Source: an uncultured Lachnospiraceae bacterium (GTDB lineage Bacteria; Bacillota; Clostridia; Lachnospirales; Lachnospiraceae). From it: a stretch of 64,000 bases of DNA. Positions within the stretch are counted from its first letter, which is position 1. The number at the start of each line of letters is the position of its first letter. Shown here piece by piece: positions 5,495-60,309 of the stretch. The stretch lies in contig CAMWQW010000007.1 of NCBI GenBank assembly GCA_947176505.1, positions 111,164 to 175,163 on the forward strand. Reading direction: 5' to 3'. The notes below the pieces were generated by a model. The model was not told the DNA's origin. It made no database searches and saw only the letters and a list, made by a program, of their open reading frames with translations. The position numbers and the translations under genes are program-made.

Positions 5495-5548
5495 CTTGCT
5501 GTCACCCCCTATATTATAATATTTTAAGTATACAACTGTGTTAAATAA

Positions 5549-5565
5549 CTGTCAAACATTGACAG
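5549..5565. promoter_or_regulatory. Perfect inverted repeat between rex and the ABC-F gene
   Basis: CTGTCAAACATTGACAG has two perfect 7-base arms around an ACA centre, in the divergent rex/ABC-F region. It does not match the usual Clostridia Rex site (TTGTTAA-N4-TTAACAA), so a different regulator, or a variant Rex site, is possible. About 100 bp of untranslated leader separates it from the ABC-F start. Confidence 0.4.
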
Positions 5566-5669
5566 TCCAGTCCTTAAACTGTAAACTGATTTTGTGTTGC
5601 AGTTCAAAGCCGCAAAACGGTCTTATCTGCAATAAAAAGTCGATTTACCATAAGAAAGGTACTTATATT

Positions 5670-15052: not shown

Positions 15053-15062
15053 AAGATTTCCT

Positions 15063-18000
15063 TTATGCTGTTTTTACTTTGGCTGCCTTATCCTTCTTAA
15101 TAAACAGAATAATGGATAAGCATGCCAGCCCGACGGATAAGAACCACTTCGGATGAATCGGATCACCCGTCTTCGGCGTCGCATCAAGCATTCCTTCCGT
15201 CAGATTACCCGTATCTACATAAACCGTGTACGGCGAGAAGTGTGTCGCCGTAAATCTGATACACGGAACACCATTAATCGTCGTAAAGTTCTCGTTCAGG
15301 TTCTCCAACTGATTACCGTTAATTACTGCACCTGCCATATTATTGCCGCCATATGCTACCAACGCATCCGGAATCGGAATCGTAATGTCTACTGAGAGAC
15401 CGGAAATCTGGTCACCCGTAAGCTGATAAGTTCCGGTAGAATCCCACAGACTGATATCCATCGCATAGTACAGAATATTATCTAAACTGCCATATTTATT
15501 TGTCAGTGCATCCGCCACCGCTCTGGTCGCCTCATCCGTCTCGGTTATCTTGACAATGAAATTGTCTGTTGAACCGTTAACATTGGCTGTCGCAAGATCT
15601 TTATTAGAGATACCGGGCTTCGTAATATCTACACGGGTATTACCATTGTCCGTACTGCCTCCGCCGCCGTTATTTGATGTGGCTGTGCTCGCCGGAGCCG
15701 TCCCGGCTGTATACTCTGCCGTTATTGTTACATTATTAGACGGCATCACGAAGGTTGTCGGCGTCTGACTGACATTCGCCAGCGAAACTCCTTGCGACTC
15801 TGTCACCCATCTCGAGAATACCGAACCTGCCGCTGGCGTATTCGCTGTAATCTGTACTGTTGTGCCTGCTGCATAACTTCCACTACCACTTCCGCCAAGT
15901 ACTGTTACAGTATATAATCCTGCATTAGCCGTTGTAGAAGTAGTCGATGTCGAGGCAGTTGATGATGACGTCGTACTTGACGTTGTACTAGTACTCGACG
16001 AAGACGTACTACTTGATGTCGTGTTGCCCGATGTATTCGTACCATTTCCGGACGTGTTTGTTCCGTTACCGGATGTATTCGTACTGCCTCCTGATGTATT
16101 TGTTGAACCGCCACTGGTTCCAGCCGCAACCTTATACAATAACACAATATTTTTGGCTGATGATATATTGGTATAAGAATCACTATATCCATTTTGTTCA
16201 TAGCCTGCATGAACAGGATGTGCTGGAGCTATTGCTTCGCCACCCGGCAAAATATACTGTGTTGGTCCAATCTGTTTGCCATCCACACCATCATAGAACG
16301 CCACCGGATATTTACCATTCACCATACCATTCTCTGTGAAGCCCTGTGCATAGAATGAAGTATCTGCATGAATCGTATCACCAAGTTTCACATTATTCAT
16401 GCCTGCCCACTGCTCAAATGTCCATCCTTCAAGCACCGGATCCGCCGGTTCAATCGGACGCGAACCATCCTCTACATATTGAGGATTATCTAAATCATTA
16501 CCTGATTTATCCTTCAAATCAGGAATCAATACATAATTGGCATCATAAAATGCTACCTGCCACAGCTCACCCAATGGATGCTGATCGTCAATCTGCAAAT
16601 GATATACATCACCATATTCTTTGACATATCTGACTACTGCTGAGTCCTCATATGCCCTCACAGTCGTCATCATTGTCTTTTCATCGTCAAAAGCAGTACC
16701 TGATATTTTAACTTCTTTACCGTAAATGGTAAGATTACCCAAATTATTTGCCCCTGAAAAAGCACCACTACCAATATCATTAGTTGTAATCGGTAATACA
16801 ACCGTCTGAAGTTTATCACAATTTCGGAAACAATCTTCAGGAATAACTGCTAATCCCGCTTTGCTCTCACTTCCAAACTCTATATTTGTAATGTAATCAC
16901 AGTCTTCAAAAGCACCCGGCTTGATTGCGCTCACTTGCTCTAAGTTAGCATCCGTTGACGTATTGACAACCGCCGGACCAACCTTTCCACTACCTCTTGC
17001 AGCAAGACATTCCTCAATCACAAGGGAACCATCCGTATTTTTGGAGTAAATGATTCCGTTGACTGTCGTATAATAATCATTATCCTCCACGTTCGTCATC
17101 GAATAGCATCCTCTGAACGGTGCCTTACCGATATCTGCACAATCCGGACCAATCATAACATACAGTAAACTCTCGCAGCTATCAAATGCATAGTCCGGCA
17201 GATATTTTACACTCTTCATCGTCACAGAACGAATCAAATCATTCCCTCGCGTATACAACTCATTGGCTGATGTTCCTTCATAGTCCTTATAATAGCCACT
17301 AAACAGACCGGGAACTACTTTTGTATTATCGTCCTCATCTCCTTCAGTTGATTCATACATCTTTCTTACTTCTGTTGACCAACTATTGTTTCTTAAATAC
17401 GTATTATAATTACCAGTATTTCTCTCTGAGCTCTCCGTTGGATTTCCATCCACTGTATAGTTCCTGATGTATCCATACACATCAATAGACTCCACACCTT
17501 CCGGAATGACAATGTTTTTAGTTGCATCAACCAGAGCCATTTCCTCTCCTGTCGGTGCTCTGTATGGATCATTAGCATCCACAATCTCTACCACATTATA
17601 TGGACGCATAGTATAATACGGTTTCGGGTCAACTGAACTTATTGGTGGGTTATCCGGGTCACTTGTATCCGCGGCATAAACCGTCATCGGCTCAAACAAC
17701 CAATCAGTCAATTTATTAACTGCATTCGATGTAGAATTGCCCGAGATATCCGGTTGGATAGGACCTGGTGTTACATGTGGATTCCCATCTACCCAGTCCT
17801 CCCATTCACTACAAAAACTTTCATTTACCCATGGACCATAATCTTCCGATGCGTATACTGTCTCTTTATCTGCCGCCGCCTGCCATGCCTGTGCAAACTC
17901 AACACGATAGCTGTCGTAATCAGTACCTGCATATCGTCCATACCACTCTGCTGTTTTCATCTCCTCATAAGACTTGGCACCACTCTTTGTAATCTCATCG

Positions 18001-20699: not shown

Positions 20700-21953
20700 T
20701 TACAAAACCCTTTTTGCCACCACCACAAACCTGCCGTCTTCTTCCGAATTATCGCAAGTCGATAATGTTAAAAGTTCGTCGCCGTAACTTGCCGTAACGC
20801 CGGTATCATAGAGCGACAGTTCCGCCATTTCCTGCATATTGGAATTAAATTCCTTCTCCGAAGCCGCATCCAGAAACTGATAGTATTTAAATACAACTTC
20901 ATCTTCGTTATAGATTCGGGAACGGAACACATACATCACTTCGTAAGTCCCCTTCTCATATATCGTATCAAACTGAATCGTAGAGTGACTTCTACAATAG
21001 TCCTCACTGCTGTATTTGTTCAGATTCCCAAACATTTTCCCGGATTTCATGTGATGTCCGTATATAATCAAATTCGTATTTCTATGTACCACATCACAGT
21101 CTTTATCCAAAAATAAGCTTCCGTTCCTGTCATATTCCTGACTGTAGTTATGGTCTAAGTAATATTCGTTGTTAGTCGTCTGCATCACTGGGTAGTCTAT
21201 ATTAGTATCGTCAATTTTCAGCCATCCGATTAGGCTTCTGTTTTTACTATAGAGTGTTTGGTATTCCTCCAACACCTTAAGTTCTATTTCTTCTTCCTCG
21301 GTATAATGAATCGTCACACCGGTTGAAGCTCCAGCCGCCAGCGTCGTATTGCCCTTAAGCTGCGCGAGATTCTCATAATCCATCTGTGTCCTGTCAGAAA
21401 AATAGTAGTATACGCCAAAATACCCAAAACACACCACCGCTACTAAAGAGCACAAAATAACTGTCAGCTTACGGCGATTCTCCCGTTTCCTAAGCTCATG
21501 AAGAATTTCCTTCTGCATCCTCTTATCAAAGTTCTCCAGTGAAATGCTCGTATTACTATCATTATCAGTATTCTTCTTTGCAGATACTTTGTTCTGTCCG
21601 CTTATACTCTTACCGGACACCTTCTTAGCCGAAGACTGTTCAGGCTGCCGCTTCTCTTTCTTCTTATTCTTAAGAGATTTCTTCTTTCCGGCTGGCAATT
21701 TAGAATTCTGATCATATCCCTGACGTCTATATTCCTGTGCCAGTTCATAGATTTCATCATCAAAATCATTACCCACCGTTGTTTCAAAACGATACTTGCC
21801 GGCTTGCATTTCCGTATAAAGCGTAATCACCTCTCCCGGCTGCTCCATATTGACTTGTGTCTTGATTTCCTTAATCTTTGCCTGATCCCTCAAGGCAGCC
21901 TTGTAATCCGCCTCCGTCCGGAATCTTCTTCCGGCAACTTCAAATCCCTCCAT
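20700..21953 (-). CDS. srtB: Class B sortase with long cytosolic N-terminal extension
   Basis: 417 residues. The catalytic domain (about 215-417) has the SrtB marks: LIGWLKIDDTNIDYPVMQ, IYGHHMKSGKMFGNL (catalytic His) and LLTLSTCDNSEEDGRFVVVAKR (catalytic Cys and Arg). The single membrane anchor is at about 165-187. Before it lies an unusual 160-residue Lys/Ser-rich cytosolic region beginning MEGFEVAGRRFRTEADYK, which is not part of known sortase folds. It sits directly upstream of the two BspA-like genes, whose SPNTG and TPKTG motifs it most likely processes. The start ATG has AAAGGAG upstream. Confidence 0.93.
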   Translation of the reverse strand: MEGFEVAGRRFRTEADYKAALRDQAKIKEIKTQVNMEQPGEVITLYTEMQAGKYRFETTVGNDFDDEIYELAQEYRRQGYDQNSKLPAGKKKSLKNKKKEKRQPEQSSAKKVSGKSISGQNKVSAKKNTDNDSNTSISLENFDKRMQKEILHELRKRENRRKLTVILCSLVAVVCFGYFGVYYYFSDRTQMDYENLAQLKGNTTLAAGASTGVTIHYTEEEEIELKVLEEYQTLYSKNRSLIGWLKIDDTNIDYPVMQTTNNEYYLDHNYSQEYDRNGSLFLDKDCDVVHRNTNLIIYGHHMKSGKMFGNLNKYSSEDYCRSHSTIQFDTIYEKGTYEVMYVFRSRIYNEDEVVFKYYQFLDAASEKEFNSNMQEMAELSLYDTGVTASYGDELLTLSTCDNSEEDGRFVVVAKRVL

Positions 21954-27214: not shown

Positions 27215-29308
27215 TTATGCCTCACCACCGGCTTCTGCTACCTTATTTGCCCTTGCAGCGACTTCCTTCTCCTGTACATCGCTTGGTGCCTGCTCATATC
27301 TTGCGAACTCATATTTGTATGTTCCGCGTCCTCCCGTCATGGAGCGAAGGTCAGTACAATAGCCATTCAGACACGCCACCGGAATATCCGCCTCAATAAC
27401 GGTCTTGCCATCGCCTGCCGGATTCATACCAAGCACGCGTCCTCTCCTCTTATTCAAATCACCCATAACATCACCCGTATAAGAATCGGGTACTGTTACC
27501 TGCAAATTAGCAATTGGCTCAAGAAGCACCGGACCAGCCTCCATAAAGCCCTTCTTAAATGCTTGAATCGTTGCCATCTTAAATGCCATTTCCGAAGAAT
27601 CAACCGGATGATAGGAACCGTCATAAAGCACTGCTTTCACACCTACTACCGGATAGGCTGCAAGCGGTCCGCTTCCTACGGAATCCTGCAAACCTTTCTC
27701 CACTGCCGGGAAATAGTTCTTAGGCACTGCACCGCCCACTACTTCCTGCTCAAATACATAGGCAGATTCCAAATCGCCGGACGCTTCAAAGCGCATCTTG
27801 ACATGACCATACTGTCCATGTCCGCCGGACTGCTTCTTATATTTATACTCTACATCAGATTTCTTCCGTATGGTCTCTCTGTATGCAATCTTCGGATCTG
27901 ACAATTCAATTTCGACTTTATACTCATTAACAAGTCTGCTTGCAACCACATCCAGATGCAAATCTCCCATACCGTAAAGCAACGTCTGCTTATTCTCTGC
28001 ATCATTGACAATCCACAAGGTCTGATCCTCATGTTTCATCTTCTGCAGTGCCTGTGCCACCTTATCCACATCGCCTTTATTTTTGGCTCTATATCTCTTA
28101 TATGTATAAGGTGTAGAAATTTCTGTTTTACCGTACCGAATGATTCTCGCCTTAGTGGACAGTGTATTACCGGTTCTTGCCGCTGTCAGTTTCGCAATAG
28201 CGCCGATATCTCCAGCATGTAATTCCTTCACCTCAATAGGCTTATTCCCCTGCATCACATATAATTTGTTGATTCTCTCTTCGACTTCTTTCTCATCATT
28301 ATAGATAGTATCGTCATTCTTAAAAACGCCAGAGCACACTTTAATCAATGAATATTTACCGATGAACGGATCCACGATTGTTTTAAAAATATATGCTGAT
28401 TTCGGTTTTGAAAAGTCAAAATTAGCTTCAAATATCTCATTGCTCTTCAAATCGATTCCCGCCAGCTCACGATTCTCCGGACTCGGCATATATTTTACAA
28501 TGTCGTCAAGCAACGTATAGATACCCTGACACAGTATATTGGATCCCATAGACATAGGTACAATACTGCCATCCATGACATTACTGCGCAGCGCAGCTCT
28601 GATTTCTGCCTCTGAAAAGCTATCTCCGTTAAAGTATCTTTCCATAAACTCTTCACTTGTCTCAGCTACGGCTTCCATCAAAGTATCCCTGCACAATTGC
28701 AGATTAGCTTTGCTGTATTCCGGCATCTCGCATTCTACAACTTCTTTGCCTTCCCAGCGGTATGCCTGCTCTGTAATGACATTAATATATCCCACAAATT
28801 TCTCGTTCTCACGAATCGGCAGATGGAACGGCGCAATCTTCTTACCGTACTTCTCTGTCATATCTGCCACTACCTGACGGAAAGATGCATTGTCAATATC
28901 CATATCCGTCACAAACACAAATCTTGGCAATTTATACTTCTCGCACAGCTCCCACGCTTTCTCCGTACCGACTTCCATTCCGGCTTTACCTGACACGACA
29001 ATAATTGCCGCATCTGCCGCACCGACAGCTTCCTCCACTTCTCCGACAAAGTCAAAAAAACCGGGGGTATCTAACACATTAATCTTCACATTCTCCCACT
29101 CGATCGGAATAACAGATGCCGCAATGGATATGTGGCGCTTCTGTTCCTCTTTACCGAAATCACTTACCGTATTGCCGTCATCTACTTTGCCCATTCTGGA
29201 AGTGATACCGGACAGGTAAGCCATCGCCTCCACTAAACTGGTCTTACCACAGCCACCATGCCCCAGCAAAACCACATTACGAATCTTATCCGTTGTGTAA
29301 ATATTCAT
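27215..29308 (-). CDS. Elongation factor G paralogue (EF-G2/FusA2-like GTPase)
   Basis: 697 residues from MNIYTTDKIRNVVLLGHGG; the ATG at 29308 has GGAGG 10 bases upstream. G1 is GHGGCGKTS (about 16-24) and G3 DTPGFFDF. Domains II-V follow the EF-G order (YKYKKQSGGHGQYGHVKMRFEA, GLQDSVGSGPLAAYPVVGVKA, MGDLNKRRGRVLGM). The G4 position reads VTDMD in place of the usual NKxD, so the guanine-specificity motif is altered. It lacks the normal EF-G companion genes (rpsL, rpsG, tuf) and is therefore the secondary type found in many Clostridia. Its cellular role is not settled. Confidence 0.88.
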   Translation of the reverse strand: MNIYTTDKIRNVVLLGHGGCGKTSLVEAMAYLSGITSRMGKVDDGNTVSDFGKEEQKRHISIAASVIPIEWENVKINVLDTPGFFDFVGEVEEAVGAADAAIIVVSGKAGMEVGTEKAWELCEKYKLPRFVFVTDMDIDNASFRQVVADMTEKYGKKIAPFHLPIRENEKFVGYINVITEQAYRWEGKEVVECEMPEYSKANLQLCRDTLMEAVAETSEEFMERYFNGDSFSEAEIRAALRSNVMDGSIVPMSMGSNILCQGIYTLLDDIVKYMPSPENRELAGIDLKSNEIFEANFDFSKPKSAYIFKTIVDPFIGKYSLIKVCSGVFKNDDTIYNDEKEVEERINKLYVMQGNKPIEVKELHAGDIGAIAKLTAARTGNTLSTKARIIRYGKTEISTPYTYKRYRAKNKGDVDKVAQALQKMKHEDQTLWIVNDAENKQTLLYGMGDLHLDVVASRLVNEYKVEIELSDPKIAYRETIRKKSDVEYKYKKQSGGHGQYGHVKMRFEASGDLESAYVFEQEVVGGAVPKNYFPAVEKGLQDSVGSGPLAAYPVVGVKAVLYDGSYHPVDSSEMAFKMATIQAFKKGFMEAGPVLLEPIANLQVTVPDSYTGDVMGDLNKRRGRVLGMNPAGDGKTVIEADIPVACLNGYCTDLRSMTGGRGTYKYEFARYEQAPSDVQEKEVAARANKVAEAGGEA

Positions 29309-29489
29309 TTCTCTAGGTCCTCCAGTTCTGTTATTCACTCATGATTGGGCAGATTGTTCTTTCAAATATATTCCCAAACACAAATTGTAAGTATATTTTA
29401 CTAAATTTCACATAAAATTTCAATATCAATTATGCGAAATGCATAACTTTTTATAATGGCGTGATTTAGTGTGTTGCCGTCTCCCCCTC

Positions 29490-49364: not shown

Positions 49365-49550
49365 TTACCCCTCCGATTCCGATTCAGGAACGTATTTCTC
49401 ACCCGTGATTTCTTCATATTCCTCCGGCGTAATCCACGGATTTGATACGGGATTTGTGACCGCATTGTATACTCTCTGTTTGCTCCAAAACTTCGGATAG
49501 AATTTTTTTACCTTTTCAAAATTCTTGCTATGTTCTCTTTTTCCTGCCAT
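49365..49550 (-). CDS. XkdX family protein
   Basis: 61 residues with FYPKFWSKQRVYNAVTNPV and WITPEEYEEITGEKY, the pattern of the XkdX family encoded after tail fibre genes in PBSX-like and other Firmicutes phages. GGAGGG precedes the ATG. Confidence 0.85.
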   Translation of the reverse strand: MAGKREHSKNFEKVKKFYPKFWSKQRVYNAVTNPVSNPWITPEEYEEITGEKYVPESESEG

Positions 49551-49553
49551 CGT

Positions 49554-49904
49554 TTAACCCTCCAAATCAATATTCTGCATCATCGCAATGTACTCCATAT
49601 CTGCCCGGACGGTAGCAATCTTTTCTTCCTGTTCTGCAGCCAGTCCACTAACCGCCTCCTGAACGGCTTCCTGTACCGCCGCCTGAACCACTTCCATGAC
49701 AACGGTGTCATACTGTGCATATTCTTCCTGTGTAACTATCGCCTCTTCGTACTGCCAAAGAAGAACAACACCGCCTTTTTCCTCTGTTTTGTAGGTTCTC
49801 TTAATGTTCCGGCGCAGATATACTACTTCGCTACTGGAGGTTTTGTCTATCGCCTCCGGCTTCTGCTCCTGTGACCCCGTTACGGTTCGCCATTTGATTT
49901 CCAT
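49554..49904 (-). CDS. XkdW-like phage tail-region protein
   Basis: 116 residues from ATG 49904, with AGGAGG 11 bases upstream inside the end of the reverse transcriptase gene (74-bp overlap). MEIKWRTVTGSQEQKPEAID leads a beta part; VVMEVVQAAVQEAVQEAVSG is a helical segment. It normally follows a fibre gene; here the DGR separates the two. Confidence 0.7.
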   Translation of the reverse strand: MEIKWRTVTGSQEQKPEAIDKTSSSEVVYLRRNIKRTYKTEEKGGVVLLWQYEEAIVTQEEYAQYDTVVMEVVQAAVQEAVQEAVSGLAAEQEEKIATVRADMEYIAMMQNIDLEG

Positions 49905-51189
49905 TCTTTTTCTTCGCCTCCTGATTCTGCTTTTTCTGGTTTTTACTGACAACCTTTTTCAGTTTCTTAATATTGATGATCGGCTTTATGCGTTCCTCAT
50001 ACATCCCGTAGGTATCGGTATGCCTCACCCACCCCATAGATGATAAAAGGGAAGCCGCATCTTTCGGATTGATTTTCTCCTGCCTTGATACCTGTCTTGC
50101 CTTTCTATTGAGCCGAATCATAATACCCTTTCGCATGACTGTACGGTTTCTGTGAAATTCAAATCCCATAAAATCAAGCGGCCTGCCATATACCATAGTG
50201 AGCTTTTCACTCTTCCCATGGTACTGCTTTAATAGCCGCTCCAATTTATCTTGTTTATTCCTCACGCTTGCAACTTTAATAAAAATCTTCCGGCGCTTTT
50301 TGTGAGTTTTCAGTGTGTGCCTAATTCTTGCTTTTTCCAGTTCATCCCCAAGAGCCGTAAGCTCCCTCATTGTCTGACATTCGATAGCATATTCCTCTAC
50401 CTCATATTCAAACCGAAATACCTGCCAATTATCTTTCATGGTAAGATGCAATTCTTCTTTCAGGTAAGCGTCTATCGCTCTCCTGACTGTATGCAGTTCT
50501 TTTTTATTGCGACCGAAACACGTTATATCATCCATATATCGCCCGTCATACTTGACTTTCAGGACTTCTTTTATGTAATGGTCTAAAGGCTGTAAAAGAA
50601 AATTGGCGAACCATTGTGACGTATAATATCCAAGCGGCAATCCCATTTCTACGGCATCAACGATAAGAAAAAGCAGCTCCCGGACGTATTCATCACGGAA
50701 TTTTTTAGTAATCCACGCTTTCAATATGTCATGGTCTACACTCTCAAAGAAGTGGCGTATATCCATTTTAAGGACATATTTTGTATTAACCGGGTCTGTC
50801 TGAATCCACTTTTCAATCCGTCTCGCTCCCATGTGCTGACCTCTTCCCGGAATGGAGCCGAGGACGTAATCATACATCCCTTTTTCAATTCCCGGTCTGA
50901 TTGCCTGTACGAGAACGTGATGGACTACCTGATCGTATTTATAATCAGGTTTTGCTATTTTCCGCTCTTTCTGATAACTTTTCTCATTGATTATTACCGC
51001 ATCATGTGTGGTCGGGATGTACTCGCCCTGTAAAAGCATTTCCGTTAATATCTGGATTTCATTTTCAAGATTATCCAGAACGGCTTTTACGTCTGGTCTA
51101 TCCCTCTTACCTCTGGATGGTATCAGGAATGATTTTTCTACACTGTCATGCGACAGCATAACATTCTGGTCGATACGAAAACTCTTCAT
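49831..51189 (-). CDS. Diversity-generating retroelement reverse transcriptase
   Basis: 452 residues from ATG 51189. RT motifs in order: KPDYKYDQVVHHVLVQAI, GSIPGRGQHMGARRIEKW, VLKMDIRHFFESVDHDIL (catalytic Asp), GLPLGYYTSQWFANFLL (the SQ-containing block typical of DGR and group II-like enzymes), GRYMDDITCFG with the YMDD catalytic pair (about 218-221), and RPLDFMGFEFHRNRTVMRKG. A Lys/Arg-rich segment of about 75 residues (about 260-335) lies between the palm and the FMGF block, so the protein is longer than typical DGR RTs. The C-terminus is basic (KKLKKVVSKNQKKQNQEAKK). No maturase or endonuclease domain is present. It copies the TR transcript with adenine mutagenesis. Confidence 0.95.
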   Translation of the reverse strand: MKSFRIDQNVMLSHDSVEKSFLIPSRGKRDRPDVKAVLDNLENEIQILTEMLLQGEYIPTTHDAVIINEKSYQKERKIAKPDYKYDQVVHHVLVQAIRPGIEKGMYDYVLGSIPGRGQHMGARRIEKWIQTDPVNTKYVLKMDIRHFFESVDHDILKAWITKKFRDEYVRELLFLIVDAVEMGLPLGYYTSQWFANFLLQPLDHYIKEVLKVKYDGRYMDDITCFGRNKKELHTVRRAIDAYLKEELHLTMKDNWQVFRFEYEVEEYAIECQTMRELTALGDELEKARIRHTLKTHKKRRKIFIKVASVRNKQDKLERLLKQYHGKSEKLTMVYGRPLDFMGFEFHRNRTVMRKGIMIRLNRKARQVSRQEKINPKDAASLLSSMGWVRHTDTYGMYEERIKPIINIKKLKKVVSKNQKKQNQEAKKKNGNQMANRNGVTGAEAGGDRQNLQ

Positions 51190-51479
51190 GTTTTCTCTCT
51201 TTCTTATCACCTCATGGTTTCTGGGCGTCTCCGCTTACTGAACCATGCCTTTATCGGTTAATTTCCACTGGTTAGACGTATTTCAACGCCCTGCGGTGTA
51301 GGTTAATAGTGTCCTTAGTTAATATTCCAATTTATAAGAATTAGGCCGCCCCGATGTTCCAGTTGGCATTCGACAGCGCATTGTTCACGTTCAACGCCAA
51401 CGCCCCCACATGGAGCGCATTGTTCGAGTTGCCGCCGACAATCGCACGGACCGAGGCTAGGGCGGACGCTATTCCCCCT
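51190..51479 (-). ncRNA. DGR RNA: template repeat plus structured spacer
   Basis: The transcript between the terminator and the RT start would hold the TR and then a 154-base spacer. The spacer can fold: CATGGTT and AACCATG enclose GGGCG/CGCC-type inner pairs near 51215-51250. In the Bordetella phage BPP-1 DGR an RNA made of TR and about 140 bases downstream is the substrate for mutagenic cDNA synthesis, and the spacing here is alike. Exact ends are not visible. Confidence 0.6.
51344..51446 (-). repeat. DGR template repeat (TR)
   Basis: 103 bp, 81 bp upstream of the terminator-free side of the RT leader, in the same direction as the VR. In the reading frame of the target it would encode Asn (AAC/AAT) at most variable positions and ends with TAA. 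It has 21 adenines, of which 14 are replaced in the VR; none of the other 82 bases differ. Confidence 0.97.
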
Positions 51480-51515
51480 AAAAAATTTCAGGAACCGCAA
51501 TTCACGATTCCTGAA
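51480..51515 (-). terminator. Terminator between the target gene and the TR
   Basis: TTCAGGAA and TTCCTGAA form an 8-bp stem around 13 bases (51487-51515), followed on the minus strand by AAATTTTTTAGG-like T-run. It splits the target transcript from TR-RT; no good promoter is seen between it and the TR, so partial read-through may set the DGR RNA level. Confidence 0.75.
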
Positions 51516-51575
51516 TAAAATTTACTCTTTGTATTGCTGTAAGCTATCCGGGGGAAATTCCCCCGTTCCCCCTAT

Positions 51576-51588
51576 GCGGCTACGCCGC
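51576..51588 (-). other. Hairpin/cruciform downstream of the VR
   Basis: GCGGC-GTA-GCCGC in the coding sense, 22 bases after the VR end and spanning the target stop codon. In BPP-1 a short hairpin just after the VR aids retrohoming; this is the matching position. The 5-bp stem is shorter than the known one. Confidence 0.5.
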
Positions 51589-53610
51589 TAAAGGCTGTTC
51601 GCAAGAAAGGGCCGCCCCGAAGTGCCAGCCGGCATACGACAGCGCAGCGCCCACGTCCAACGCCAACGCCCCCACAAGGAGCGCATTGCTCGAGGAGCCG
51701 CCGACAATCGCATAACAGTTCGCCGCAAACCATAATCCATCCGGGTACTGTGTTGTTTCGCTCCCGGATGCAGTCATGGGGATAAGACCGTCTTTCGTCA
51801 TTTTGCAAGCACTGATATATCCCCCGGACGTACCTCCCGGCGTCACCCCGGTATCTGTATATCCCGCTCCCGTAGTATTATACGGTGCGGTACTCTTAAC
51901 CAGAATCCGGGTACTTCCGTTTGTCACGCAACCCTCGATACGCTCCCAGACATCACCCCACCAGTTTTCAATATGGAATACCTTGACGTAATCTCTGGTC
52001 TTATTTGTACCGTAGAACTGTCCTTTATTCGATGCGCCGCCCGTTGTCAGGTAATTAGGACTTGAACTCGAACCGCCCGTATAATATCCATAACCGAAAG
52101 CGGTCTGTGTGTCCGTGGTCTTACCCATCAGGATTAAGAGCATATTGATAAGATTGCGCTGCGGCCATGACCGGGTACTCCATAAAGAGCCGTTTGCTTT
52201 CGCATATGTTAATTCGTTCGCTCCCGTCTGTGATGCCATAGGATTTAATCCCTTTATGGACCGTACCTTATTACTTACTAATGAACCCTCGAACATGGAA
52301 AGATAAATAAAATCCATTTCCGTACCATCTGCTCTCGTATGAGCGTATGCGTGGTAATCATCATCTAATTTTACGTCACAGATATTGCAATACTCGTACC
52401 CGTCTGCCTCCCACATTTTCAGGTATGTTTTGGGTATTTTACTCATTGCATTTCCGGCAAAAGAACTGTTCGACACATCGGATGCCGTACCGTCCTTTTT
52501 CTTGGTGTAATCGTCCGGGTTAAGTTCGTATGCTTCTGTACCGTCATTATTCAACATGACAGGCTTGTTTTCCTTTACGAACCAGAAGTTAGCAAAAGAG
52601 CCGTAGTCAAATTCCCCTGTGGCAAGATTTACCTTTGCCGGAGTAAGACCAACGGCTCCCTCTGTATACTCAACCTTTGTTCCCGGATTCGATTCTGATT
52701 TTTTCATCCTGAATCCCAAAAGCGTATAGGCTTTCGGAATTGCTGATACCGCTGCGGATGCAGCCGATGTTCTGAGGTTTGTGTAGGCGTATGCAACGAA
52801 GAAATATTCTGTCAGGTTCGTAAGTCCGTCTACTACCACTTTCCCGGATGAAAGCCCCTCGATGATTCTTCCATCCGTTCCGCTTGTGGGAGCGGAACCA
52901 GATTTGTAAACCAATTTCACAAGGGCATCCGGCGTTTTGCTCTCGATTTCAAGCGTAACCGCCCCGTCAGTGCCTTTCGTGCTTATGATTTTCGGCACTT
53001 CCGGCTTGATTTCCTCCGGAACGAAAGACTGTGTAAAGTCATATGTGTAAACAATCATATCCGAATACGGGAATATACCGTAGCAGTATTCGGCACCGTT
53101 CGTCAGGTTTCCGTCAATCAGCGGCGTATCTTTGTACTTGTTTTTCTCGGTTATCCTCTCAACAAGAACACCGTCCGTCCAGTCTTTCGGAGTTCCTCCC
53201 TCTTTTCGTACTACCACCGTTCCCTGCCATGTAGCAAGTTTAGCACCGTTGTAAATGACGTCTTCCGGGTCAGTCCATGTAATCTTTGCGGCCTCGTCAA
53301 AATTCGTAATGCTTACGTCAGACGGCATCGCAAGTTTGATTCCGGCATTGCCCTCGGCGGTTCCCTCGCACTTAATCGTGCCATCCTCCTGAATCGTGAT
53401 TGTTTTTCCATCCGGCTTTACGGTTCCTGCCTGATCCGTGGTGGCAACCATTTTGTCCGGGTCTTTTACTCCCATAGATTTCTTTAAATCGTCCACTGTT
53501 ACCTGTTTTGTTCCTGTACCATCCGGCATAACAACGGGAAGTACCGCACCTGCAGGAACTTCCTGAATAATCGGTAACGAGCTGATAGGTACATTTGGTT
53601 TTTCTGCCAT
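51580..53610 (-). CDS. DGR target: tail-tip/receptor-binding protein with variable C-type-lectin-like end
   Basis: 676 residues from ATG 53610 (AAGGAGG upstream). A short N-terminal part (PNVPISSLPIIQEV, then a collar-like VTVDDLKKSMG) precedes two fibronectin-III-like domains (about 100-195 and 200-290). The C-terminal half (about 295-676) has the FGE/C-type-lectin-like look: DFIYLSMFEGS, WSTRSWPQRNLINMLLIL, NWWGDVWERIEGCVTNG and YPDGLWFAANCYAIVGG leading into the VR. Nine residues follow the VR. It follows the BppU-like fibre gene and is the last structural gene, so it should sit at the tail tip and contact the host surface. Confidence 0.93.
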   Translation of the reverse strand: MAEKPNVPISSLPIIQEVPAGAVLPVVMPDGTGTKQVTVDDLKKSMGVKDPDKMVATTDQAGTVKPDGKTITIQEDGTIKCEGTAEGNAGIKLAMPSDVSITNFDEAAKITWTDPEDVIYNGAKLATWQGTVVVRKEGGTPKDWTDGVLVERITEKNKYKDTPLIDGNLTNGAEYCYGIFPYSDMIVYTYDFTQSFVPEEIKPEVPKIISTKGTDGAVTLEIESKTPDALVKLVYKSGSAPTSGTDGRIIEGLSSGKVVVDGLTNLTEYFFVAYAYTNLRTSAASAAVSAIPKAYTLLGFRMKKSESNPGTKVEYTEGAVGLTPAKVNLATGEFDYGSFANFWFVKENKPVMLNNDGTEAYELNPDDYTKKKDGTASDVSNSSFAGNAMSKIPKTYLKMWEADGYEYCNICDVKLDDDYHAYAHTRADGTEMDFIYLSMFEGSLVSNKVRSIKGLNPMASQTGANELTYAKANGSLWSTRSWPQRNLINMLLILMGKTTDTQTAFGYGYYTGGSSSSPNYLTTGGASNKGQFYGTNKTRDYVKVFHIENWWGDVWERIEGCVTNGSTRILVKSTAPYNTTGAGYTDTGVTPGGTSGGYISACKMTKDGLIPMTASGSETTQYPDGLWFAANCYAIVGGSSSNALLVGALALDVGAALSYAGWHFGAALSCEQPLAA
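51610..51712 (-). repeat. DGR variable repeat (VR)
   Basis: 103 bp, codes for about residues 633-667 of the target protein. It differs from the TR at 51621, 51624, 51629, 51630, 51636, 51647, 51648, 51650, 51651, 51657, 51677, 51689, 51695 and 51696, all adenines in the TR coding strand. Ten codons are changed. The end away from the RT start is the GC-rich GGGGCGGCC, the expected IMH-like end. Confidence 0.97.
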
Positions 53611-53624
53611 CTTCTTTTCCTCCT

Positions 53625-54701
53625 TTAAATTACGGCATAGCACCATTCCGCTTCTAAAATATCTCCGCTTTCCGTTGTCAGGTTATAACCATCCTCGGTA
53701 GCGAGATGCGCATGGATTTTTCTTCTGATAAGCATATTTTCCAGCTCTGCAATGCGTTCTTCACACTCCAACAATTCCAGAACAACGCTTGCGGCTACAT
53801 CACCAGACATTTTTCCTTTTACAAGCTCAAACCAAGCATCAAAAGCCGCCTCCCGGTCGCTTTCAAAAGCCGCAAGCCTTTGTGTGATTTCTGCCATATC
53901 ATTGTAGCCTTTATTTTGAAGAGCGGTGAAAAATGCGCTCAAATCAGACAAATATTTGCTGTATGCGGTAAGCATTTTTTGTGTAAAATCTGCATAATCC
54001 GTATTGTACTTGTCAACATAGGTATTATACAGGTCGTTCAGCTGTGTATAATAACTCTGATATGCACTATCCATTTTCAGGATAAAATCAGCGTAGTTAT
54101 CATTAAACTTTTTGACATACTCGTCATAAAAAGCATTAAGCTGTGTAAAGAACACCGACAAATCCAAAGTGCCTATCAGGTTCGTAACCACTCCACAATA
54201 GGTAATGTCATATCTGGTGTCCGTTATGTTGCTCTGCATGATAACCGTCTGATTCGATTCCACTTTTATCAGAGCCAGACACAACTCATAGTAATCACCT
54301 GATTTTGGCTGGATCAGCTCTGGTGGTGTGGGATTGACCGCCGCATCGCCGTTACGGAATATCAATTCTATTTTTCTGTCTATGTGGTTCAGCCTTGCAA
54401 TAACAGCGGTTATTCTCCGATACTGTGATGGTGCATTGTCAAGCGTAAGATATGCAGGTTTCGGATTATAGCCGAACCGTCCGTTTATAATAATGAATCC
54501 GGGATTGACTTTAACCGACATTCCCTCGTCTGCCTGAACCATGAGGCAATCTGCCGGAGCGCCCAAAACTCCGTTGGAAATCATCTTCGACCAGAACAAC
54601 GCGAAAATCTCACTGTTTTGCGCTCTATCCAGAATCGGAAACCCCTCTTCATCGTAACCTACTATTTCACTGTCGAAATAGCCGTATTCCTGAAAATCCA
54701 T
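53625..54701 (-). CDS. BppU-like baseplate/tail fibre protein
   Basis: 358 residues from ATG 54701 (GGGAGG 10 bases upstream; TTG at 54707 is too close). The N-terminal half (QNSEIFALFWSKMISNGVL, MSVKVNPGFIIINGRFGY, ITAVIARLNHIDRKIELIF) is a known plug-in module of Firmicutes baseplates. The middle has repeated FY..Y...FN.NYADF..KM helices (about 190-265) forming a coiled fibre. It probably carries the DGR target encoded right after it. Confidence 0.8.
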   Translation of the reverse strand: MDFQEYGYFDSEIVGYDEEGFPILDRAQNSEIFALFWSKMISNGVLGAPADCLMVQADEGMSVKVNPGFIIINGRFGYNPKPAYLTLDNAPSQYRRITAVIARLNHIDRKIELIFRNGDAAVNPTPPELIQPKSGDYYELCLALIKVESNQTVIMQSNITDTRYDITYCGVVTNLIGTLDLSVFFTQLNAFYDEYVKKFNDNYADFILKMDSAYQSYYTQLNDLYNTYVDKYNTDYADFTQKMLTAYSKYLSDLSAFFTALQNKGYNDMAEITQRLAAFESDREAAFDAWFELVKGKMSGDVAASVVLELLECEERIAELENMLIRRKIHAHLATEDGYNLTTESGDILEAEWCYAVI

Positions 54702-54703
54702 AC

Positions 54704-55798
54704 TCAATTTACCTCCCTTTTAATGAGCTGTTCTACCGTCTCTATTTCATCCGTTCCAAAAGTAACGGATATGGTTTCGGCGCCTCCCTCGTATACTTCC
54801 ATGATTTCTGTTATCCGTTTTTCCGTCTCAACGCCGATTTCCGTATTGATATAGGTGCAGAGATCGCCAACATCAAAATCTTTTCGATATATCAGGTTTG
54901 CGTTGGCATCAACATCACTGTTTACCGTTTCAATCATCGGGTACTCTTGTAGCTTTTCTACACCACGGTTTCGGAGCAATGCTTTGTATGCCGAATCACT
55001 TATTGCGTTTCCGTTGGAATCCTGCCGCTGTAAATCCCTTGCATCCACCCATATCTCACGCCTTTTTTCATCAGGGGAACTCCGTGCATCCACTTCTATG
55101 ACCGTCCTGTTATTTCCCTCTCCCTCCCCGGCAACATACGCAAGATTCTTGTATGAAGATTTATTCCTTTCATACTGGACACTTTTGATATTACAGAAAG
55201 CGTTTGAGAAAATCGCCCAGCTGTTTTCCTCCTGATTATCCGTTCTGTCTTTTCCCTGCCACACTTCAAATTTGAGCGTATCATTCAGGTAATCAAAAAG
55301 AACACGGTGGCTTATCTCTACCGTGTTCCCTACATCGTATAACCATTCGCTTAAATTCTTTCCCGTCACCTGTGCGTCAAACTGATACTCTAATCCTGCA
55401 CTTTCCCCAAGTATCAGGTTTTCAACAGGCTCATTGTTCGCCGGATTTATGGCAAACTGTGTTACGGTGGACCTCATGGCATCCTCTATCTTCCCTGTCA
55501 GGTTCAGCGTTTTGCTTATTACCCGATCCGCAAGAAGAGCTTCAGCGAAATTACCTTTTGCGTAACAAGTCTTACTCCCGGTGTCCGTCTGTGCATACTG
55601 CACATCATCAATCATTCCCAGATTTTCACGGTCATTTCGGTATATATATGTTCCCTGTTTGAGCAGTGAAAAATAAGATGTCGCTGTATGCAGCTCAAAA
55701 TACCCTAACTTTGTGTATCTGGGTACCCAGATTAAGGAAGCGAACAACGATATACTCCCTAAAGTCTGGAATTTTTCATCAAGGACCAATACTCTCAT
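54704..55798 (-). CDS. Siphovirus Gp37-like tail protein (Tal/hub)
   Basis: 364 residues beginning MRVLVLDEKFQTLGSISLFAS. SLIWVPRYTKLGYFELHTAT, YIYRNDRENLGMIDDVQY and YKNLAYVAGEGEGNNRTVIEV fit the ReqiPepy6 Gp37-like family, which takes the place of the tail hub after the Dit protein. GGGGGTG precedes the ATG. Confidence 0.85.
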   Translation of the reverse strand: MRVLVLDEKFQTLGSISLFASLIWVPRYTKLGYFELHTATSYFSLLKQGTYIYRNDRENLGMIDDVQYAQTDTGSKTCYAKGNFAEALLADRVISKTLNLTGKIEDAMRSTVTQFAINPANNEPVENLILGESAGLEYQFDAQVTGKNLSEWLYDVGNTVEISHRVLFDYLNDTLKFEVWQGKDRTDNQEENSWAIFSNAFCNIKSVQYERNKSSYKNLAYVAGEGEGNNRTVIEVDARSSPDEKRREIWVDARDLQRQDSNGNAISDSAYKALLRNRGVEKLQEYPMIETVNSDVDANANLIYRKDFDVGDLCTYINTEIGVETEKRITEIMEVYEGGAETISVTFGTDEIETVEQLIKREVN

Positions 55799-55801
55799 AG
55801 G

Positions 55802-56722
55802 CTACACCCCCAAATAAAGCGGTGTGTAATACAATTTTACGTCAAGATTCGTATAGTCTACATCCGCATTGTATATCAGATAATTTTCACCCTTTGCAAG
55901 TTTGAAAGGCTCGGAGCGCTTATCTATTTTCTGGTATGTGTTCACGCCATTCAGCTCTATTATCTGGTGGTGATCGTCCGTATCTATTTCCAGAACGTCA
56001 CCCTCTTTCATTTCAACCTTTATCCGCATGAATTTTCCCGTAGCCTTATCCGTGATGCAGGGATTGACTACCCTCCCTCTGGCGGCGATAAACTGAATGA
56101 TTACGCTTGTTTCCACATCGCCGTCATTCGTTAGTGAAACCTCTGTTTTCAGTGTGCGGTATGCCATTCCCATTTTCCCTTTTCCGAAATATTTATACGG
56201 TGACGGCACTCCTGAATAAACCTGTTTTGTAATTCTCCACGGGAACGCAAACAAACGTGTCTTGTCTGCCATATTCTGACCGAAATTGTCTACGTTCTTA
56301 AAATACGGATTAGGACAAGTGAGGTCAACCGTAAAGCCGACCTCACTGTCAATCGTTGTTTCTTCATCAGGAACAAAGCCCTCAATTTCAAATTCAATGT
56401 TTCTCTGCTTTCCGTTCCTGTTTACTGTTAGTTTCCCGGTATACTTCGGATTAAAAAATGCTATCAGCTGTTCTCGCATCATTCCGCAATTATCTAAATC
56501 TCTGGATGATGCTGTGATACTGATCGGGCGTTTCAGAATCCTTTTTCCGTTTACCGTTGAGCCATCCACAAGGGCATTATCAGAGGTTGCTACCTGATAT
56601 TCGGATGCCCCAAGCCCTGTGATTTTTGTAATACCAAAAGGCTGTTTGATTCCGTTTTCATCCATGCCGAGAGATAACTTTTTGCCGTTTATCTCCAACA
56701 CTACATGCAAAAATCCTCTCAC
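55802..56722 (-). CDS. Distal tail (Dit)-like protein
   Basis: 306 residues from a GTG at 56722 with GGAGGG 8 bases upstream, overlapping the tape measure stop (GTGA). Residues 1-130 (ITGLGASEYQVATSDNALVDGSTVNGKRILKRPISITA) are the Dit belt domain of siphophage tail family proteins. The rest (VGFTVDLTCPNPYFKN, VSLTNDGDVETSVIIQF) is the galectin-like C-terminal domain. Confidence 0.87.
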   Translation of the reverse strand: MRGFLHVVLEINGKKLSLGMDENGIKQPFGITKITGLGASEYQVATSDNALVDGSTVNGKRILKRPISITASSRDLDNCGMMREQLIAFFNPKYTGKLTVNRNGKQRNIEFEIEGFVPDEETTIDSEVGFTVDLTCPNPYFKNVDNFGQNMADKTRLFAFPWRITKQVYSGVPSPYKYFGKGKMGMAYRTLKTEVSLTNDGDVETSVIIQFIAARGRVVNPCITDKATGKFMRIKVEMKEGDVLEIDTDDHHQIIELNGVNTYQKIDKRSEPFKLAKGENYLIYNADVDYTNLDVKLYYTPLYLGV

Positions 56723-59700
56723 TTCTTTATCCCTCCTAATAAATCCCTTGCAGCTTTCCTCTGGCTCCTGTTTATCTCGCTCGGTGTTGCTGTCGGGCAA
56801 TTATAATTGTTCTCCATTTCAATATGGTTATCCTCAACGTAGGTATCGCCGCCTTTATTCGTGGTGGCATTATAGGTAGCCCTCGCAACTGTGCCTGTGA
56901 CTGCCTCTGTCCTGCCTCTCCGAACCTCTTCCTGCATGGTTGATGTCAAGTGTCCTGCTGCTGCTTTTAGGTCTGCATCTGCCTCTGGGAGCGTTGCTTC
57001 AACACCCTCCACAACGCCCGGTATCAGCCATTTACCAACCTTATCCCGAAACTCTTTTGACGGGCTTTCAATTCCGAGTGCGCCCTTTGCCGCATCTAAC
57101 AGGCTTTGTGCTAGGCTTGATACTTTTTCTTTCAGCCAATCCCACCCGGAAGATATTCCGTTCCATATTCCGGTAACGCAGTTCTTTCCTACCTCTACAA
57201 ATTTATCCGGCAGACTTTTCAGCGTGTCTACGATTCCGCTTATCATGGTGGTAACAGCACTTACTGCCTGATTTCTCAGGTTGATACCCCATTCCATTAC
57301 TTTGTTTACAACATTGACAAGCCAAGTCCACACTTTCCCCGGCAATCCCTGAAACAGAGTAACAATATTATTTATCGTGTTCGTCACTGCGGATGTCGCA
57401 GCGGATAATAAATTGATACCCCATTGCGTCACATTCGTTACAACATTGACAAGCCAAGTCCAGATTTTTCCGGGTAATTCGGAAAACAGGGTAACTACGT
57501 TGCTTATCATCGTCTGAACTGCTGTATTTGCCTGTGATTGCAGATTTACGCCCCACTGTATAATCCGTGTAACAATATCAGTCAGCCAAGTCCATATCTG
57601 CCCCGGCAATGTGGAGATTGCAGTCACGACCGTATTAACAAACTCTGTCGCAATGTTAAGGGCCTGTGCGGCGATTTCTGCGCCCCATGTGATAATATTG
57701 TCGAGTACGCCGCTAATCGCCTCCATTGCCCTATCAGGCAACTCTGCAAGACCGTTTATCATGCCTTGCACAAGGTAATCTCCCTGCTCTTCCATTACGG
57801 TAGATGGGCTGTGGATTCCGAAAAAGCTCTTAATTCCGTCAAGGATTCCCCCGCCGAGTTCGACCGCCGCATCAAATACCGCCTGTACCCCTCCGACAAG
57901 ACCGTTTACAATTCCGGCTATGATGTCGGGAATTGCAGATGCTAACCCGGCTACTACCTCCGGGATTGCTGTAATGATGTTCCATAATAAATCTTTAGCC
58001 GCCGTAAAAATTGCCGGCATTGCATCCGCAAGCCCCGTTGCTATGGCTGTGATGATCTGCGGCAAATTCTCCGCTATTGCTACCACGATTTCCGGGATAG
58101 CCTCAATCAGTGCCATTAACAGGGTTATTGACGCTTCCAGTAATTGTGGCAATGCGCCGACAAGACCCTCCACAAGTGCCGTGATTATCTGTGGGAGATT
58201 TTCAACGATAGCCTGAATAATCGTAGGTATCGCATCAATGATACCCATAAGAAGCTGAATCGCACCGTCTACAATGAGCGGTATGTTTTCAGTGAAAAAA
58301 TTGATAATCGTGGTTATCAGTTCCGGCAACACCTGTAACAGCTGTTCTATGATTGTGGGTATCGCTTCGATGATACCCATGAACAACTGTATTGCTCCCT
58401 CAATCAGTAGGGGGATTCCGCTTACTAGACCGTCAATCAATGCCTGTACGATGTTGATTGCCGCCTCCACTATCGCCGGGAGATTCTGTACCAGAGCATC
58501 GCATATTTCTATCAGGATATTTGCCGCTTGAACAATTAACGTTGGTAATGTCTGTGCGATTCCGTCTATGATTGCAAGTACAATATCCACGCCAGCCTGC
58601 AGTACATCGGGAAGCCAGTCTACTATGCACTCCACAATATCAGTCAGCGAAGTTGCCATTGCTGATACTGCCTGTGGCGCTCCGGTCGCAATGCCCTCTG
58701 CCAGTTTACCGATCAGGACAATAGATGTAGTCCAGATGTCACCAACGCAAGATGCAATCCCGGTAACAATAGACATCACCAGATTAGCCCCGGCATCTCC
58801 TAACCCCGGCGCACTCTTCAATCCCTCGCAGAATGAGGAAACCATATTGACAGCCGCATTTATCAGGGTAGGTGCAGCCTCGGCTATTCTCTGGACTATC
58901 TGTGACATCACATCCCCGATTGCCCCTACCATTCCGTCAAAGCCGCCCTCTTTGAAAGCGTCAGAAAGCGTTCCTATCATGCTTGTAGCAGTCTGGACCA
59001 CTTCTCGCATCGGATTATCAACGCTTTCATAAAGAGAAATACCCAATCCCTCCAATGCGGAATTGAGTATCTTCAAGTCACCCTGTAAATTGTCATTCAT
59101 GGTGTCTGCCATATTCTGCATAGCTCCGGCAGACCCATCTATATATCCAGACAGTTCATCGAATCGGCTTCCGCTATCTGACAGGACACTCATAAACCCG
59201 GAATACATTACCCCAGCCTGTTCAGCTGTTACCCCGTATTCCGACATTGCTTTTTTAGCAAATTCTTCCTGTGTGATTGATGTATCAAAGGATTCTACTA
59301 ATTCATCAATAGAAACTCCAAAAGATTTTACATCTATCCCGGCAGAATCAAACGCTACGCCTAAATCTCCTACATTCGATGCGCACCCTGCAAGTAACAC
59401 CTGTGCGGATGCAAGGTCTGTTTTGTTGAATATCTTGTTAATAACTCCCGTTCGCTCTTCCTGCGTCATTTCAGAAAGGCTTCCGTTAAGTTCTCCAAGA
59501 ATATCATTCAGAGGGCGCATATTGCCCTCTGCGTCATATACCCCGTTTGTATATTTTTCTAAAGCCGATGCTGCGGCTTCGGTCGGTGTCTGTAAAGCTA
59601 AAAGGACATTCCTCAAATGGGTACCGCCCTCCGAACCTTTGATACCGCTATCAGCAAGTATTCCTAGTGCCGTGTTTAATTCCGTTGTTCCCCCGGCAAG

Positions 59701-60309
59701 GTCTTTCGCTGTCGCTCCAACTGTCAAAATCGCCTCGCCAAGCTGTGATACGGATGTATTTGATTTCTGTGCTGTTACCGCCAGTTTATCGCCAAAATTC
59801 GTGAGGTTTTCATTTGATGCCGCAATGCCTAATGCACTCATGGCATCAGTCGCAAGATCGGATGCGTATGCCAGATCCATTCCTCCGGCAGCCGCTAAAT
59901 TTAATACTGACGGTAAAACCTCGGATGCAGTAGCCGCATCATATCCAGCAAGTGCCAGATAGTTTAACGCCTCTGCCGCTTCCGATGCAGAATATTGTGT
60001 GCTTTCCCCTGCCGCTTTCGCCGCTTCTGAAAGAATATCAAACGGCTTCGTGCCATCCTCGGCAATGGTATCAGCAGTGATACCCATTGTAGCCGCCACC
60101 TGCGACATGGACGCCTCAAATTCCATGCCTACTTTTACGCTCGCCGCCCCGATTCCGGCTAATGCAGTAGCAGCCCCGGTCAGGATTGTTGTAGTGGCTT
60201 TTATTCCTGTTTTTGCAATATTTCCAAGTTTAGATAGTCCGGCATTAAAGCCGCTTGCGTCTATCTTTGTGTCAAAATTAAGTGTGCCATCGTTCGCCAA
60301 CGTTCCCAC
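56719..60309 (-). CDS. Tail tape measure protein (TP901 type)
   Basis: About 1193-1196 residues. MANDGTLNFDTKIDASGFNAG is the usual N-terminus, and a TTG at 60300 with GAGGTG upstream may be the true start rather than the GTG at 60309. Residues about 60-400 hold the TP901 core (ASMSQVAATMGIT, STQYSASEAAEALNYLALAG, GSEGGTHLRNVLLALQ). Residues about 470-800 are tandem hydrophobic units of the type 'AIPTIIQAIVENLPQIITAL'. Three copies of about 44 residues start WTWL-NVV (about 930-1060). The length sets tail length; 1.2 k residues suggests a tail of medium length. Confidence 0.95.
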   Translation of the reverse strand: MGTLANDGTLNFDTKIDASGFNAGLSKLGNIAKTGIKATTTILTGAATALAGIGAASVKVGMEFEASMSQVAATMGITADTIAEDGTKPFDILSEAAKAAGESTQYSASEAAEALNYLALAGYDAATASEVLPSVLNLAAAGGMDLAYASDLATDAMSALGIAASNENLTNFGDKLAVTAQKSNTSVSQLGEAILTVGATAKDLAGGTTELNTALGILADSGIKGSEGGTHLRNVLLALQTPTEAAASALEKYTNGVYDAEGNMRPLNDILGELNGSLSEMTQEERTGVINKIFNKTDLASAQVLLAGCASNVGDLGVAFDSAGIDVKSFGVSIDELVESFDTSITQEEFAKKAMSEYGVTAEQAGVMYSGFMSVLSDSGSRFDELSGYIDGSAGAMQNMADTMNDNLQGDLKILNSALEGLGISLYESVDNPMREVVQTATSMIGTLSDAFKEGGFDGMVGAIGDVMSQIVQRIAEAAPTLINAAVNMVSSFCEGLKSAPGLGDAGANLVMSIVTGIASCVGDIWTTSIVLIGKLAEGIATGAPQAVSAMATSLTDIVECIVDWLPDVLQAGVDIVLAIIDGIAQTLPTLIVQAANILIEICDALVQNLPAIVEAAINIVQALIDGLVSGIPLLIEGAIQLFMGIIEAIPTIIEQLLQVLPELITTIINFFTENIPLIVDGAIQLLMGIIDAIPTIIQAIVENLPQIITALVEGLVGALPQLLEASITLLMALIEAIPEIVVAIAENLPQIITAIATGLADAMPAIFTAAKDLLWNIITAIPEVVAGLASAIPDIIAGIVNGLVGGVQAVFDAAVELGGGILDGIKSFFGIHSPSTVMEEQGDYLVQGMINGLAELPDRAMEAISGVLDNIITWGAEIAAQALNIATEFVNTVVTAISTLPGQIWTWLTDIVTRIIQWGVNLQSQANTAVQTMISNVVTLFSELPGKIWTWLVNVVTNVTQWGINLLSAATSAVTNTINNIVTLFQGLPGKVWTWLVNVVNKVMEWGINLRNQAVSAVTTMISGIVDTLKSLPDKFVEVGKNCVTGIWNGISSGWDWLKEKVSSLAQSLLDAAKGALGIESPSKEFRDKVGKWLIPGVVEGVEATLPEADADLKAAAGHLTSTMQEEVRRGRTEAVTGTVARATYNATTNKGGDTYVEDNHIEMENNYNCPTATPSEINRSQRKAARDLLGGIKK

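Follow-up and report, generated by a model that had tools for sequence, protein, structure and literature searches.

Diversity-generating retroelements (DGRs) purposely mutate a chosen segment of a gene, and their mechanism has been worked out on the Avd-dependent element of Bordetella phage BPP-1 (NC_005357). Here, we describe an element of this kind in a prophage of an uncultured, gut-type Lachnospiraceae bacterium, carried on a stretch of 64,000 nucleotides (assembly GCA_947176505.1, contig CAMWQW010000007.1, positions 111,164 to 175,163) that we call the window. We propose that it is almost certainly an Avd-less phage DGR, working by the steps set out below, that changes the tail-tip protein of the prophage. 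DGRs are a well-known kind of element and the machinery is of familiar type; the freshest part of our analysis is the link between DGRs and the structured RNA family named RT-4 in Rfam.

In BPP-1, as in the window, the gene for a known or putative receptor-binding protein has a variable repeat (VR) at its 3' end, a template repeat (TR) lies upstream of the reverse transcriptase (RT), a hairpin with the stop codon follows VR, and the spacer RNA is structured; unlike in the window, Avd is encoded between mtd and TR. The BPP-1 spacer RNA is reported to fold, recruit the RT-Avd complex and prime complementary DNA (cDNA) (PMC12875486). The post-VR hairpin is required in BPP-1, and figures of it box the TAG stop of mtd (PMC3240598). 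More than 30,000 DGRs have been catalogued in six lineages, three of which are found mainly in phages, and phages with DGRs were reported to infect a broader range of hosts (PMC8144416).

Faecalibacterium phage FP_Epona (MG711462) shares with the window the order of tail target, TR, RT, small open reading frame (ORF) and XkdX gene, an RT-4 RNA at the corresponding position (124.4 bits), TR/VR differences at adenine only (13 of 13) and a homologous target (profile comparison with hhalign, probability 100%). It is another phage of another host, and its RT, 36% identical to that of the window, is shorter (384 aa) and so probably lacks the insertion of about 65 residues described below. Among the F. 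prausnitzii phages, Avd homologues were reported for no others than Mushu and Lagaffe (PMC5883640). DGRs that have this gene order and lack Avd, as in Epona, are already published. Related RTs, both annotated as putative reverse transcriptase, are encoded by Butyrivibrio phage Arawn, with 9 of 9 differences at adenine and an RT-4 match below the gathering score, and by Lactobacillus phage LBR48, which has an RT-18 RNA before the RT and for which no TR/VR was found in the stretch read, its record starting 821 bases before the RT.

Repeat pair, target protein and hairpins

The two repeats of the window are 86% identical, and every one of their 14 mismatches over 103 bp falls on an adenine of the TR as read on the minus strand (14 of 21 adenines, 0 of the 82 other bases; hypergeometric P 1.7e-12). 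An earlier note made from the letters of the window had claimed this confinement to adenines, and its repeat coordinates, repeat size and counts all proved exact. Ten codons are altered from TR to VR: eight for Asn, as the note had read, and the remaining two for His and Ile become, in the VR, S, S, L, D, G, A, Y, G, H and F, again in agreement with the note. When the host assembly (4.17 Mb, 62 contigs) was searched with the TR, the matches were TR itself and VR, along with two of 14-15 bp (E 1.3 and 4.5) that are not significant. As a positive control, the repeat-pair script recovered the annotated TR and VR of BPP-1, with 18 of 22 mismatches at adenine.

The VR stops 30 bases short of the end of the tail gene and encodes residues 634 to about 667 of the target (Table 1). 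A Pfam scan of the target gave no convincing domain. A profile of 22 target homologues searched against the PDB (E up to 1) has three matches, all aligned through the VR: 5vf4 (E 1.2e-11), which is listed as uncharacterized and which we take to be a Thermus DGR variable protein, and Mtd of BPP-1 (1yu2 and 1yu3, E 0.013 and 0.038). In the AlphaFold model, the predicted local distance difference test (pLDDT) score is mostly 85-98 from residue 291 onward, with dips to 67-80.

Table 1. Features of the retroelement and of the adjoining prophage genes in the window
Feature	Position	Strand	Remarks
Template repeat (TR)	51344-51446	minus	103-bp direct repeat
Variable repeat (VR)	51610-51712	minus	103-bp direct repeat
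Target gene, tail-tip / putative receptor-binding protein	51580-53610	minus	676 aa; phrog_5302 tail protein, E 1.2e-85
Hairpin GCGGC-GTA-GCCGC	51576-51588	minus	GC-rich; 21 bases past VR
Second hairpin CGGGGGA-ATT-TCCCCCG	51549-51565	minus	past target gene
Structured spacer RNA	51202-51300	minus	Rfam RT-4 (RF03025), full length
DGR reverse transcriptase (RT)	49831-51189	minus	452 aa; phrog_1423, E 3.3e-97; PDB 8ub7, E 5e-22
RT insertion	50197-50394	minus	residues ~266-331, ~65 aa
Small ORF overlapping RT end	49554-49952	minus	phrog_20201, function unknown; without Avd match
XkdX-family gene	49365-49550	minus	PF09693, E 2.1e-10
Structural protein	53625-54707	minus	phrog name 'head protein'
Minor tail protein	54704-55798	minus	
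Dit	55802-56800	minus	
Tape measure	56719-60309	minus	

The first of the two hairpins behind the VR contains the TAG stop codon of the target (51580-51582). An inverted repeat with arms of at least 5 bases occurs within 100 bases after the VR in 29 of 34 relatives, a count for which the chance expectation was not computed; the relatives without one in that range are L020 and L022-L025.

Reverse transcriptase

The closest solved sequence to the reverse TRANSCRIPTASE (RT) of the window is 8ub7, which ranks ahead of a group II RT (E 8.1e-13) and which we take to be the DGR RT of BPP-1, its database entry naming it only 'Reverse transcriptase'. The YMDD motif and SQ block reported in the earlier note are there, as GRYMDD and YTSQ. 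In 24 aligned RTs, D143, S191, Q192, R217, Y218, D220 and D221 are invariant and M219 nearly so. Translation probably starts at the ATG at 51189, which gives the conserved MKSF start and 452 aa, rather than at the GTG at 51210. The AlphaFold model has a mean pLDDT of 87. Before the DFMGF motif, the RT carries an insertion rich in basic residues that, among the aligned RTs, is confined to one sub-branch, the RT of the window included; it is modelled as a helix-strand-strand-helix unit between two strands (residues 262-334, block-mean pLDDT 92-96).

Spacer RNA

The segment that separates TR and RT matches RT-4, where the spacer of BPP-1 is matched by Phage_DGR (RF03022, 104.7 bits) instead; in 51000-51800 of the window, the RF03022 model finds nothing at E up to 1. 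Across relatives, the stems of the segment covary. In a MAFFT alignment of 15 sequences, scored on a 22-pair structure adapted from that of Rfam and the window sequence, 92.7% of cells are paired and 16 of the 22 pairs are altered on both sides, and the covariation of 0.513 compares with a mean of 0.167 in shuffled alignments (0 of 500 as high) and with at most 0.130 when the structure is slid along the alignment. Further pair types are less decisive (31 against 26.6, a count matched or exceeded in 28 of 500 shuffles). The innermost helix, at 74% paired, is weak. Unaided, RNAalifold predicts 20 pairs, 13 of them with changes on both sides.

Scanned at the gathering threshold, six relatives yielded two RT-4 RNAs (L011, 77.6 bits; L044, 123.4 bits), one RT-18 and one RT-17, with none of these RNAs in L018 and L034. 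At E up to 0.001, RT-4 occurs in 10 of 397 genomes of the family, that of the window included, five of the matches being above the gathering score and five below. All 10 loci adjoin an adenine-biased repeat pair on the strand of the RNA (10-18 adenine mismatches of 11-21, in a search with an adenine threshold of 0.7), and none has such a pair on the opposite strand. An RT ORF was recognised by motif at nine of the 10, and the tenth (L093) adjoins an RT known from the RT search of the family genomes. RT-18 matches are found in 4 of 398 genomes, namely at the window locus, where RT-4 scores better, and at three other loci, all beside a pair (15 of 17, 10 of 13 and 15 of 15 mismatches at adenine) and an RT ORF. 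A survey of 378 genomes for RT-17 gave no match, but its controls were also silent, so that the evidence for RT-17 is one locus (L022).

Read most simply, these data make RT-4 and RT-18 the counterpart, in DGRs of this branch, of the BPP-1 spacer RNA; Rfam labels the latter as a DGR RNA but not RT-4. We did not meet RT-4 or RT-18 described as a DGR RNA, nor the names or accessions of RT-4, RT-17 or RT-18, in the literature searched, which excludes the source paper of the motifs (Weinberg et al. 2017), a paper that may already mention DGRs. As a separate observation, RT-18 and RT-17 RNAs stand before RTs of the same DGR branch at L019, L022, L097 and L098-L100, and neither family carries a DGR label in Rfam.

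Avd

The earlier note called the element complete, which holds for TR, VR, RT and target, all present, and does not extend to Avd, for which no gene was found in the host genome. The Avd model phrog_3206 has no match there and none in 15 viral records; the model itself works, since it matches 4 of 8 other genomes with related cassettes, on other contigs or, once (G400, contig C6), about 56 kb from the cassette. PF05635 likewise has no match in the host genome, though its controls were also silent. One Avd match, at 107287-107613 of contig C102 in G402, has coordinates near those of the L035 cassette but lies on another contig (148,460 against 179,507 bases). In complete genomes, 62% of DGR RTs have Avd nearby (PMC8934634), so that it is not obligatory. 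The idea that the RT insertion is a general stand-in for Avd is weakened by L012, L015 and L034, which have neither the insertion nor an Avd match in record or genome; it survives for the sub-branch only.

Related cassettes

An adenine-biased VR-TR pair (at least 75% of mismatches at template adenines) lies upstream of the RT in 29 of 31 loci collected by RT similarity, some of them near-duplicates; none was found upstream of the RT in L017 and L027. A search of 397 family genomes for the RT gave 11 loci beyond that of the window, with a pair at 10 of them and not at L042 (L039 lies on the same contig as L035). Pooled over 31 distinct cassettes, 519 of 847 TR adenines are altered as against 34 of 2,655 other bases, a ratio that is illustrative only, since reaching an adenine threshold of 0.75 was the condition for accepting a pair. 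Among the 34, many fall repeatedly at positions 109-116, close to the 3' end of the repeat. The replacements of adenine in these cassettes favour G (303) over T (118) and C (98), in which selection and enzyme preference are not separated.

Proof is therefore carried by the count in the window itself and by the comparison of L028-L031, four prophages of Lachnospiraceae and related genomes with the same cassette layout, an RT-4-like spacer and RTs 80-81% identical to that of the window. Their TR, spacer and VR-TR gap are identical; the six pairwise comparisons give 0-1 changes over the 1,500 bp that precede the VR and 0-15 over the 1,365 bp of the RT, as against 11-18 within the 103 bp of the VR. 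This is the pattern that mutagenic retrohoming would leave, seen by comparison in these four prophages, and it indicates that the DGR machinery works in this lineage. The TR of the window differs from theirs at many non-adenine positions, and there each VR tracks its own TR. The earlier note had named VR variation falling equally on non-adenines among related genomes as a finding that would refute it, and this did not come about: in the window and five close relatives (L005 and L028-L031), 76 of 77 TR-to-VR changes are at adenines and 1 is elsewhere.

The similarity of these prophages extends well beyond the cassette. L029 and L031 share 99.2% identity across 33,459 bp, and two more segments of 10.8 kb and 3.8 kb match at 97.5% and 95.7%, while L028 and L029 are 99.4% identical over 24.7 kb. 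At their left end is a 580-aa ORF that, read from sequence, resembles a large serine recombinase, and beyond it there is no match of 300 bp among three genomes. Their hosts are distant: rpoB is 75.4% identical between the genomes of L029 and L031 and 80-81% between those of L029 and L028. Nearly one phage with different VRs thus inhabits distant hosts, the VR being only a candidate cause. The records of L029 and L030 are metagenome-assembled genomes; for L029 and L031, a binning error is unlikely, as the single queA gene of each genome lies on the contig of the prophage. The genome of L030 belongs to the genus of the window's host, and a search of it for rpoB found none. Taken together, the genomes of L028, L029 and L031 (G397, G398 and G400) have rpoB about 74-81% identical, closely similar prophages and different VRs. 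Between the L029 prophage and the window, the DNA has one match of 3.7 kb at 77%, and no match beyond the cassette and tail gene (pieces of at least 200 bp).

Discussion

The match to 8ub7, the adenine bias, the VR at the 3' end of the gene, the hairpins and the structured TR-RT spacer support the DGR reading of the earlier note. On the model of BPP-1, the TR and the RT-4-type spacer would be transcribed as one RNA, and the spacer would fold, serve in priming and bring in the RT, which would make cDNA of the TR with random bases placed opposite adenines. The mutated cDNA would then take the place of the VR in the 3'-terminal part of the tail-tip gene, a step in which the repeat's own 3' end and the hairpin behind the VR would help. 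The TR would be kept intact and the face of the C-terminal, putatively C-type-lectin-like domain altered, so that changes in the VR may alter host contact.

Several points weigh against this reading. No Avd gene was found for this DGR, while BPP-1 needs Avd. Compared directly with Mtd, the target profile gives a weak match (probability 24.5%, E 0.0008, 43 columns). The spacer scores 67.2 bits against the RT-4 covariance model (E 1.7e-11), 6 bits under the gathering score of 73.5, and the gathering-threshold Rfam scan of the window is blank for this reason. Two exact patterns used to look for a near-identical copy of the window prophage had no match in viral contigs, and among 77 genomes of the genus the cassette occurs in one besides its own, that of L030, at 78% identity. 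With no near-identical prophage copy found, the activity of the window copy rests on its own TR/VR difference.

A rival possibility is that a once-working DGR is now silent in this prophage, its VR a fossil of past mutagenesis. The want of a near-identical relative with another VR would fit this, as would that of Avd in the host genome; we nevertheless consider it unlikely, as the RT is open with its catalytic motifs, none of the 82 non-adenine positions has changed in the VR, the spacer RNA and hairpins are present, and relatives are active. The VR diversity of the relatives might also be put down to ordinary recombination between diverged phages and not to mutagenic copying. The related prophages are indeed mosaic, with other 103-bp windows reaching 34 differences, above the VR. 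On this ground, we rejected the notion that the VR is their most variable window, and only the local contrast holds. That contrast, with 0-1 changes in the 1,500 bp beside the VR, none in the following 163 bp, and VR changes located at TR adenines, makes recombination a very improbable explanation. A third rival would make the RT one of a group II intron, a retron or a defence system, and the repeat pair a matter of chance or an old duplication. In its favour, the best NCBIfam matches are group II, Drt3a and retron models, all of them far below their cut-offs, and the best PADLOC match is a general RT model (E 1.4e-27) ahead of defence RT models. Against it, 8ub7 outranks the group II RT, the mismatches lie at adenines only and 29 of 31 RT relatives have an adenine-biased pair; we consider it next to impossible.

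With an Avd-less, probably working phage DGR as the preferred reading, what might its RNA and its RT insertion do? One option, to which we give somewhat less than an even chance, is a branch of phage DGRs free of Avd whose spacer and priming RNAs are RT-4 and RT-18 (perhaps also RT-17). Under this option, the part of Avd would be taken by the RNA and, in some members of the branch, by the thumb-region insertion of about 65 RT residues, and such phages would cross bacterial genera while the VR is rewritten. The lineage offers a compact version of the DGR, with no Avd found and a defined RNA, and suggests a function for Rfam families without a DGR label. Distant hosts that carry nearly one and the same prophage, but with different VRs, are moreover a natural experiment in which a link between VR and host choice can be tested.

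Prophage setting and neighbouring genes

On the minus strand, the gene order is tape measure, Dit, minor tail protein, structural protein, target, TR, RT, small ORF, XkdX, a pair of small ORFs, of which one is phrog_937 ('hemolysin'), and endolysin. Because the contig (175,163 bases) stops where the window stops, the prophage is truncated on its head side. On the left side, leuS, an EF-G-like gene and a prephenate dehydrogenase gene lie at 24-31 kb of the window, and the prophage must thus start somewhere after about 31 kb.

Outside the prophage, the EF-G-like translation factor (27215-29338, minus) exceeds the cut-off of an EF-G subfamily model, with tetracycline-protection models below their cut-offs. 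Two long ORFs (951 and 1840 aa; 12197-20585 and 20700-21953, minus) have partial similarity, far below the cut-off, to a leucine-rich adhesin model, and a class B sortase adjoins them. An ABC-F family ATPase (5538-7643, plus) exceeds the cut-off of a general ribosomal-protection-like model.

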